Assembly: GCA_002780715.1 (NCBI GenBank)
Contig: PEUO01000121.1
Coordinates: 1,102 to 42,901, forward strand
DNA from: Deltaproteobacteria bacterium CG03_land_8_20_14_0_80_45_14
Lineage (GTDB): Bacteria > Desulfobacterota > BSN033 > UBA1163
DNA length: 41,800 nt
Direction of reading: 5' to 3'
A program made the position numbers and the translations under genes. Each line of letters opens with the position of its first letter. The stretch's first letter is position 1. This document shows, piece by piece, positions 2 to 41,800 of this stretch. The notes below the pieces were generated by a model. It did no database searches. It was given only the letters and a program-made list of their open reading frames with translations, and was not told where the DNA came from.

Positions 2-1351
2 GGAATGAGTGGAATGGAAGTTCTGGATCACATACGAACCATTGATCCGAACCTCCTTGTCATCGTGATCACAGGTTATGCGACGGTGGAGTCAGCCGTG
101 GAGGCCATGAAAAAGGGGGCCTACGATTTCATCCCCAAACCTTTCACCCCAGACCAACTCCGCATCATTGTGAGAAGAGCGTTGGAGAGGAGAGCCCTCC
201 AGAAAGAAGCGGAGTTTCTGCGAAGGGAACGGGAGAGATCTCTTCGGGATATTGCCACCGAGAAGTCTAAGATCAAAACCATCATCAATTGCATGGGCGA
301 TGGTGTCCTGGTGTGCGATCGTGACGGTTGCATTGTTCTCACGAATCCGGCTGCAAGTCGAATGCTGATAACTTCCGAAACTTTACTTCTGGGAAATTTC
401 CTCCCCCAGTGTAATCTCCATTCAGAATTGTCCAAGACCATTGAAGAAAGTCTGAAGACAAAGGATATGAGTTATACTTCTGTCTCCCAGGAGTTGAGTA
501 TTGGAGAATCCGGAGAGATTTTTCTCCGTGCCCATACTGCCCCTGTACGAAACGATCTCGGTGAGACCATGGGTTCTGTCACCGTCCTCCAGGATATTAG
601 TCATCTGAAAGAACTCGACAAGATGAAATCAGAGTTCATCGCTATGGTCACCCATGAACTTCGAGCGCCTATCGCCGCTGTTGAACAGCAACTGACTGTC
701 ATCCTGAATAAAATGGCAGGGGAAATAACAGAAAAGCAGGAACGACTCCTTTCCCGCGCCAAAGAGAGGACAAAAGGACTTCTCGATCTGATCAAAGACC
801 TTCTTGACCTTTCCAAAATTGAAGCAGGAAAGATGGTTCAATACAAAGAGCCTCTCGCCCTTCACGATGTGATTCAAAGAGTGGTGGATCTGATGAGGGT
901 TGTGGCTGACAACAAAAAGATCGATCTTCAATTCTCCGCCCCTTCCAATGTTTCGGTGATCCATGCAGACCGAAATAGTATGGAGGGAATCTTCACCAAT
1001 CTCATTTCCAATGCCATCAAATATACGCCTGAGGGTGGAAAGGTTTGGATCAATCTCGTTGAAGAGGGCGGATTTGTGAAGGCCATGGTCTCGGATACTG
1101 GGATTGGCATTAAAAAAGAGGATCTCCCTCGAATCTTTGATAAATTCTATCGGGTGAAAACCATAGAAACTCGTCAGATCGTCGGGACAGGCCTCGGACT
1201 TTCAATTGTCAAGAGCATTGTGGACGCTCACTTGGGCTCCATCTCCGTCGAAAGTGAGGAAGGCGGAGGAACTACTTTTACTGTCTTTTTCCCAAAAGAG
1301 TCAAATCCGGTCATCTATAAACCCTGTGATGCGACAGAGAGCAATGTTTGA
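2..1351 (+). CDS. Receiver-PAS-histidine kinase hybrid, 5' end cut by window edge
   Basis: This is a two-component signalling protein, probably cytoplasmic because no membrane segment is visible. The reading frame is open from base 2, so the start lies outside the window. The visible part begins just after the expected phospho-acceptor Asp of a CheY-like receiver domain (residues 1-60 from the first Met, with the conserved switch Thr in VITGYA and the Lys in PKPF). A coiled linker and a PAS domain (about 88-200) follow. Then come a HisKA domain with phospho-acceptor His217 in THELRAP and a HATPase_c domain with an N box (NLISNAIKYTPEGG), a G1 box (DTGIGI) and a G2 box (GTGLGLSIV). The gene stops 19 bases before hdrC on the same strand, so it may be co-transcribed with the redox genes and sense redox or energy state; that link is inferred from position only. 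Confidence 0.9.
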   Translation, partial: GMSGMEVLDHIRTIDPNLLVIVITGYATVESAVEAMKKGAYDFIPKPFTPDQLRIIVRRALERRALQKEAEFLRRERERSLRDIATEKSKIKTIINCMGDGVLVCDRDGCIVLTNPAASRMLITSETLLLGNFLPQCNLHSELSKTIEESLKTKDMSYTSVSQELSIGESGEIFLRAHTAPVRNDLGETMGSVTVLQDISHLKELDKMKSEFIAMVTHELRAPIAAVEQQLTVILNKMAGEITEKQERLLSRAKERTKGLLDLIKDLLDLSKIEAGKMVQYKEPLALHDVIQRVVDLMRVVADNKKIDLQFSAPSNVSVIHADRNSMEGIFTNLISNAIKYTPEGGKVWINLVEEGGFVKAMVSDTGIGIKKEDLPRIFDKFYRVKTIETRQIVGTGLGLSIVKSIVDAHLGSISVESEEGGGTTFTVFFPKESNPVIYKPCDATESNV

Positions 1352-40857: not shown

Positions 40858-41155
40858 CCAAAGGCTACTTTAATCCCGAATCGGTAATTAAAAATAAAAT
40901 TGTTTCAAAAGGAAATATTCAAATCACACTATTTTTTTCTATTTTTTTTCTTGACAAAAATATTCTTTGTGGTATGTTTCATATGTTTTTAATTTACCAT
41001 ATCTTTAATCCTTTTTAATCTTTATGGCTTTTAAGGAACAGGGGGGGCCTTAGAGAAATCTTAAGGTTAAAAGAACTCCCTTATTAATTAAAGGGAAAGG
41101 GGGTGAACTTAACTCTCATCTTAAAAATTTTAAGAAAGGAAGGTGAATAACATTT
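40858..41155. other. AT-rich leader region of the formate dehydrogenase gene
   Basis: No gene was seen. The stretch holds a candidate promoter (40951-40978), a ccctt/aaggg hairpin near 41080-41100, the perfect small palindrome cttaaaaattttaag (41120-41134) just before the Shine-Dalgarno, and a purine-rich run at 41040-41047. The leader of about 170 bases leaves room for regulation. Confidence 0.55.
40951..40978 (+). promoter_or_regulatory. Candidate promoter of the formate dehydrogenase operon
   Basis: TTGACA at 40951-40956 and TATGTT at 40973-40978 are 16 bases apart in very AT-rich DNA, about 175 bases before the start codon. Confidence 0.5.
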
Positions 41156-41800
41156 ATGAAAATTACCCGAAGAACATTTTTAAAGATTTCGGGGGCCACA
41201 GCAGCAGGAACAGTGATGGGTGGCTTAGGATTTGATCTCTCTCCAGCAGAGGTCTATGCCCAGGAACTCCGGATTAAAGGGGCTAAGGAAACAACATCCA
41301 TCTGCTGTTACTGTTCGGTTGGTTGTGGGATTATTGTCCATACCGATGCCAAGGGAAAAGTGATCAATTCCGAGGGGGATCCAGACCACCCCATCAATGA
41401 AGGGGCCCTTTGTGCCAAAGGGTCTTCACTCTATCAGATCGCGGTCAATGATAACCGTTTGAAAAAGGTCCGGTATCGCGCCCCTTATAGCGCCCAGTGG
41501 AAAGAGGTGAGCTGGGAATGGGCTCTGGATAAGATCGCGGCCAACATCAAGAAGAGCCGGGATGCGAGCTTCATGGAGAAGAATGCCAAAGGTCAGGTGG
41601 TCAATCGAACCAACGGCATTGCCTCAGTGGGAAGCGCAGCCCTCGACAATGAGGAGTGCTGGCTGTACGCAAAATTCCTCAGGTCTCTCGGCATAATCTA
41701 TATCGAGCACCAGGCCCGTATCTGACACAGCGCCACTGTAGCGGCTCTGGGAGAGTCGTTCGGACGCGGTGCAATGACCAATCATTATATCGATTTTAGA
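41156..41800 (+). CDS. Tat-exported selenocysteine formate dehydrogenase alpha subunit, 3' end beyond window
   Basis: This is the catalytic subunit of a periplasmic FdnG/FdhA-type formate dehydrogenase (molybdenum or tungsten bis-pterin, one [4Fe-4S]). A twin-arginine signal (RRTFLKISGATAAG, cleavage near VYAQE) is followed by the cluster motif CCYCSVGCG with its fourth Cys in GALCAKG. TGA at 41723-41725 is read as selenocysteine (residue 190): the flanking text EHQARI-U-HSATVAAL is the FdnG active-site sequence, and the frame stays open through GRGAMTNHYIDFR to the last base. A SECIS-like hairpin follows at the expected distance. GGAAGGTG precedes the start by 11 bases. The beta and gamma subunits are presumably downstream. 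Confidence 0.95.
41740..41760 (+). promoter_or_regulatory. Probable bacterial SECIS element
   Basis: A 9-bp stem (agcggctct at 41740-41748 with agagtcgtt at 41752-41760, two G-U pairs in RNA) carries a ggg loop 24-26 bases after the UGA. SelB-dependent recoding in bacteria requires such a hairpin just downstream of UGA with G early in the apical loop. Folded by eye only. Confidence 0.65.

Follow-up and report, generated by a model that had tools for sequence, protein, structure and literature searches.

The stretch of DNA analysed here, 41,800 nucleotides long and called the window below, comes from Deltaproteobacteria bacterium CG03_land_8_20_14_0_80_45_14, the genome of which amounts to 3.24 Mb in 253 contigs. 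The window forms the end of one of these contigs (C51) and closes on the 5' part of a gene encoding the alpha subunit of a formate dehydrogenase. The features of this gene, together with those of a second selB locus elsewhere in the genome, are collected in Table 1. With the standard genetic code, the ORF caller stops at position 41725 and delivers an ORF of 189 amino acids (41156..41725, forward strand) terminated by the TGA at 41723-41725, as the preliminary description of this DNA had said of a naive reading. When this TGA is translated as selenocysteine (Sec, U), the frame is open up to the edge of the window, with EHQARI-U-HSATVAALGESFGRGAMTNHYIDFR around Sec190.

Table 1. Position of the features discussed in the text, and the basis of each assignment
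Feature	Position	Strand	Basis
Putative ribosome-binding site, purine-rich GGAAGG	41138..41143	+	Ahead of the ATG at 41156; read from the sequence
Formate dehydrogenase alpha subunit, 5' part (215 codons including Sec190)	41156..41800	+	Translation with TGA as U
Predicted TAT (twin-arginine) export signal, KITRRTFLK	41156..41221	+	Pfam PF10518, residues 2-22, E=5.5e-6
Fe4S4-binding N-terminal domain, molybdopterin oxidoreductase	41285..41440	+	Pfam PF04879, residues 44-95, 66.7 bits
Predicted Sec190 codon, in-frame UGA	41723..41725	+	TGA in 75/79 sequences; aligns with the active-site position of D. vulgaris FdhAB
Putative SECIS hairpin: stem AGCGGCUCU (41740-41748) / AGAGUCGUU (41752-41760), loop GGG (41749-41751)	41740..41760	+	Folds, synonymous invariance, Rfam match below threshold
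tRNA-Sec-like RNA, anticodon GCA	G000:C152:9262-9351 = L010:1498-1589	-	
Second selB (selB*)	L109:7239-9239	-	SelB-family match

The remainder of the gene is carried by another contig of the same genome. When the downstream part of a homologue with 93% identity was used to search this genome, it matched C14:3-2417 with 87% identity. The first 11 bases of contig C14 repeat the end of the window (TCGATTTTAGA) exactly and in frame, and the junction of C51 with C14 rests on this 11-bp overlap and on homology. C14 (L127:1-2420) contributes 805 open codons corresponding to the rest of the alpha subunit, that is, 802 further residues past the window part, and the joined protein has 1017 amino acids. 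Against TIGR01553, the joined protein scores 1494 bits over residues 3-1008 (curated cut-off 814.2), the window part alone 303 bits. The Sec or Cys followed by His that this family requires is found as U190-H191, which falls on the active site of the Desulfovibrio vulgaris enzyme in the alignment. An fdhB-like gene for a beta-like Fe-S subunit and then an FdhE-like gene lie directly downstream, both scoring below the curated family cut-offs. A break of the frame soon past the window edge, envisaged in the preliminary description as a result contrary to its reading, was looked for, and the frame stays open on C14. The end of the standard-code ORF at 41725 is what one would expect if the UGA were a true stop, or if the gene were a decaying pseudogene, with 41156-41725 making a 189-residue fragment or nothing. 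However, 802 open residues with high identity to homologues lie downstream, the UGA occupies the same codon in many genomes, and the hairpin behind it is conserved. Reading the UGA as a stop or the gene as a pseudogene is refuted by the conserved open frame, and its probability is vanishingly small.

In an alignment of the window with 78 homologues (n=79), codon 190 is TGA in 75 sequences and TGC or TGT in four; more homologues with Cys at the Sec position were found in the same phylum. E. coli FdnG and FdhF, members of the same superfamily, have a UGA at the same codon, with a hairpin directly behind it that is read by SelB. The closest solved structures are those of FdhA from D. vulgaris FdhAB (PDB 6SDR, 9QM0 and others), with 1432 bits for the full-length alignment vs. 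only 993 bits for E. coli FdnG. In D. vulgaris FdhA, the active site reads IEHQARI-U-HS and Sec192 was established by crystallography (PMC11323313). Like the present enzyme, D. vulgaris FdhAB has a TAT-type N-terminus, and a gene for a small Fe-S subunit without obvious membrane helix follows downstream. It belongs, however, to another lineage, the closest named relatives here being Syntrophaceae and other deltaproteobacterial metagenome bins. Judging from these alignments, the enzyme is nearer D. vulgaris FdhAB, which is soluble and periplasmic, than E. coli FdnG. Hence, of the FdnG-type active site proposed earlier, the placement of the UGA at the metal-binding Sec position stands, while the closer relative is FdhAB.

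The genome contains the full set selA, selB, selC (anticodon UCA) and selD that a bacterial selenoprotein requires, and the lack of Sec machinery that the preliminary description had put forward as a possible objection was not found. Genome searches gave 632 bits for selA, 390 bits for selD and 81 bits for a tRNA-Sec with anticodon UCA. Two SelB-family proteins score above the cut-off; the canonical one, on C241, carries a SRKYAIPLIEYFD motif in its RNA-binding C-terminus. The canonical Sec genes are spread over three contigs (L009/L111 for selA and tRNA-Sec, L110:6818-8767 on the reverse strand for selB, L025 for selD). selD has itself an in-frame TGA, with an 8-bp hairpin downstream and a GGA loop at about +22..24. 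Besides, L003 (G000:C147:29670-32828) encodes another formate dehydrogenase with a TGA in frame, where the surrounding sequence is DHCARL-U-HSSTVAGLAAAFGSG.

The hairpin behind the UGA lies exactly where it had been described, with a stem of 9 bp (G-U pairs included) that begins 14 nt after the UGA and a GGG loop at +24 to +26. It is present in both folds tried, with -10.3 kcal/mol when the stretch is folded alone. Shuffled sequences fold as well in 11 out of 200 cases for 41720-41775 and in 78 out of 200 for a longer stretch; taken alone, the folding energy says little in favour of a SECIS and does not stand out. The bSECIS model (bSECISearch consensus, restated in PMC13188914) specifies a loop of 3-9 nt on an upper stem of 4-16 bp, a G in at least one of the first two loop positions, 16-37 nt between the UGA and the apical loop, and a minimum free energy of at most -7.5 kcal/mol. 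On all four counts the hairpin deviates nowhere from this consensus: the loop has 3 nt and the stem 9 bp, the first two loop bases (G24 and G25) are each G in 95/95 distinct Sec genes, the distance is 23 nt, which bears out the earlier statement that the spacing falls within the bacterial range, and the energy is that given above. In a 201-base scan, the Rfam model SECIS_3 (RF01989) matches 41720-41778 with 24.9 bits (E=0.0011), short of its gathering cut-off of 63. The start and end of this match fit the position of the UGA, and many stem positions are mispaired if the hairpin is forced into the model. The hairpin is in register with SECIS_3 but is not filed under it because of the score. Its exact pattern occurs once in the genome, at 41740-41760, and a reversed control pattern had no match in the genome.

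The hairpin lies within the codons for VAALGESF. Of the 770 six-codon windows in the gene, codons +6..+11 rank first in synonymous conservation over 78 gene sequences, with a mean synonymous identity of 0.98 vs. a per-codon gene mean of 0.44, and the synonymous sites flanking the hairpin vary freely. This peak arises because the offset of the stem pairs third-codon positions (+18, +21, +27, +30 and +33) with second-codon positions that are fixed by the amino acid. These five positions are as required in 94-95 of the 95 distinct Sec genes (motif xAL[AG]ES), loop position +24, the free third base of a Leu codon, is always G, and the hairpin core is kept in 94/95. In one homologue (L234), Ala is replaced by Lys, C17 by A and the silent position 33 by T, so that the pair C17-G33 becomes A17-T33, a single compensatory change. 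In only one distinct Sec gene of the 95, L108, a change of T21 to G breaks a core pair, which may reflect a sequencing error or a weakened SECIS.

Homologues with Cys at codon 190 behave differently. Of the 12 Cys genes that share the protein motif, four keep the 7-bp core (Fisher p=1.3e-8, uncorrected for relatedness), and the other eight have lost the codon choice of the hairpin, encoding the same residues through other synonymous codons. These genes bear directly on whether the nucleotide conservation behind the UGA is only codon bias or protein conservation, with no RNA signal. The segment HSATVAALAESFGRGAM is indeed strongly conserved as protein; however, Cys homologues having these residues mostly choose other synonymous codons, and synonymous sites on either side vary freely. 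An explanation by codon bias or protein conservation is refuted by the codon choice lost in 8/12 Cys homologues and has next to no probability. The comparison shows a pattern of selection acting on the hairpin and tied to the UGA, and the comparative evidence for a SECIS function is strong and unusually clean. Since silent codon positions pair with amino-acid-fixed ones, RNA selection can be read directly and covariation is almost unneeded, which makes this hairpin a good teaching case for RNA selection inside a coding sequence. The hairpin alone is no proof of Sec, because four Cys homologues still keep it. L039, L060, L068 and L209 have TGC or TGT at the Sec codon and retain the full SECIS core; these are probably recent Sec-to-Cys changes.

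The second SelB is encoded on C152. About 20 bases upstream of its gene lies the tRNA-Sec-like RNA, with anticodon GCA and a discriminator U, and the selenium genes yedF and yedE follow selB*. This SelB reads GRTQT where the SECIS-binding SelB of Moorella has SRKY. A selC*/selB* pair is known from Syntrophobacterales and Desulfobacterales, some selC* members having a UCA anticodon (PMC7609411), and by sequence the C152 SelB and its GCA tRNA-Sec-like RNA match this pair. C152 was also considered as a contamination of the bin, but neither its G+C content (46.2%, as in the window) nor its tetranucleotide correlation (0.92, where 10-kb pieces of the window compared with the rest give 0.94) sets it strongly apart. 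The presence of a SelB paralogue with a tRNA-Sec-like RNA, and the UCA anticodon of some described family members, raise the question of whether such a pair, its RNA acting as a tRNA-Cys, reads the UGA as Cys. Here, however, the anticodon is GCA, which reads UGC and UGU, so that the pair should not read UGA; the genomes of the three near relatives checked (L029, L031 and L043) have TGA in this gene and a UCA tRNA-Sec with no close copy of selB*, and the canonical selA/selB/selC/selD set is complete. Insertion of Cys at this UGA is extremely improbable.

It is also conceivable, if very unlikely, that the C152 pair reads Cys codons that are followed by this type of SECIS. If true, this would account for the few UGC or UGU formate dehydrogenases in which the hairpin is intact, and the known selB*/selC* pair would have a target. 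In the genome of L060, a tRNA-Sec-like gene with anticodon GCA sits near selD (L136), and there is no close copy of selB*. That of L039 has only a UCA tRNA-Sec, with a distant SelB, and that of L068 gave no tRNA-Sec above the cut-off and no SelB match. Since none of these three genomes holds the GCA tRNA together with a close selB*, recent replacement of Sec by Cys is the simpler reading.

The same hairpin is found in the formate dehydrogenase of many genomes of the phylum, and also in bins labelled Nitrospirae; one cultured relative with this hairpin is Solidesulfovibrio aerotolerans (L081). Compared with the E. coli fdhF-type SECIS, it has a 3-nt GGS loop at +24..26. A stem differing from the fdhF element had been noted before; the difference of the loop from fdhF is common to the whole clade. 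A search with the SelB* C-terminus in 20 homologue genomes gave one SelB-like match in 16 of them, two in 2 and none in 2, with only one match close (59%) to SelB*. As the loop is clade-wide and most of these genomes have one SelB-like match, its difference from fdhF is not evidence of a peculiar local SelB, and the earlier suggestion that the local SelB may prefer a different loop is not supported by these data. Sec formate dehydrogenases with an AGLAA motif form a GGUCU loop near +19..23 when folded; two loop registers therefore exist. The C147 enzyme resembles the second register (GGGCU loop, +19..23), so both registers can apparently occur in one genome.

Taken as proposed in the preliminary description, the UGA at 41723-41725 almost certainly encodes Sec190 of the formate dehydrogenase, inserted via SelB and the hairpin at 41740-41760; the TGA shared by most homologues, the Sec machinery, the continuing frame and the UGA-tied selection on the hairpin argue for it. 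The gene codes for the catalytic subunit of a formate dehydrogenase (FdhA/FdnG, TIGR01553) that is predicted to be periplasmic and to depend on molybdenum or tungsten. Following established knowledge, SelB with Sec-tRNA(Sec) of anticodon UCA would bind the hairpin, Sec would be inserted in place of termination by release factor 2, and Sec190 would ligate the active-site metal. The free third positions of the VAALGESF codons complete the stem pairs and supply the loop G. This is an ordinary selenoprotein of the best-known bacterial family, in a well-known arrangement, and none of the field's open questions depends on Sec190 or its hairpin. For this organism, standard annotation would cut the enzyme at residue 189 and lose the formate dehydrogenase operon across the contig break.
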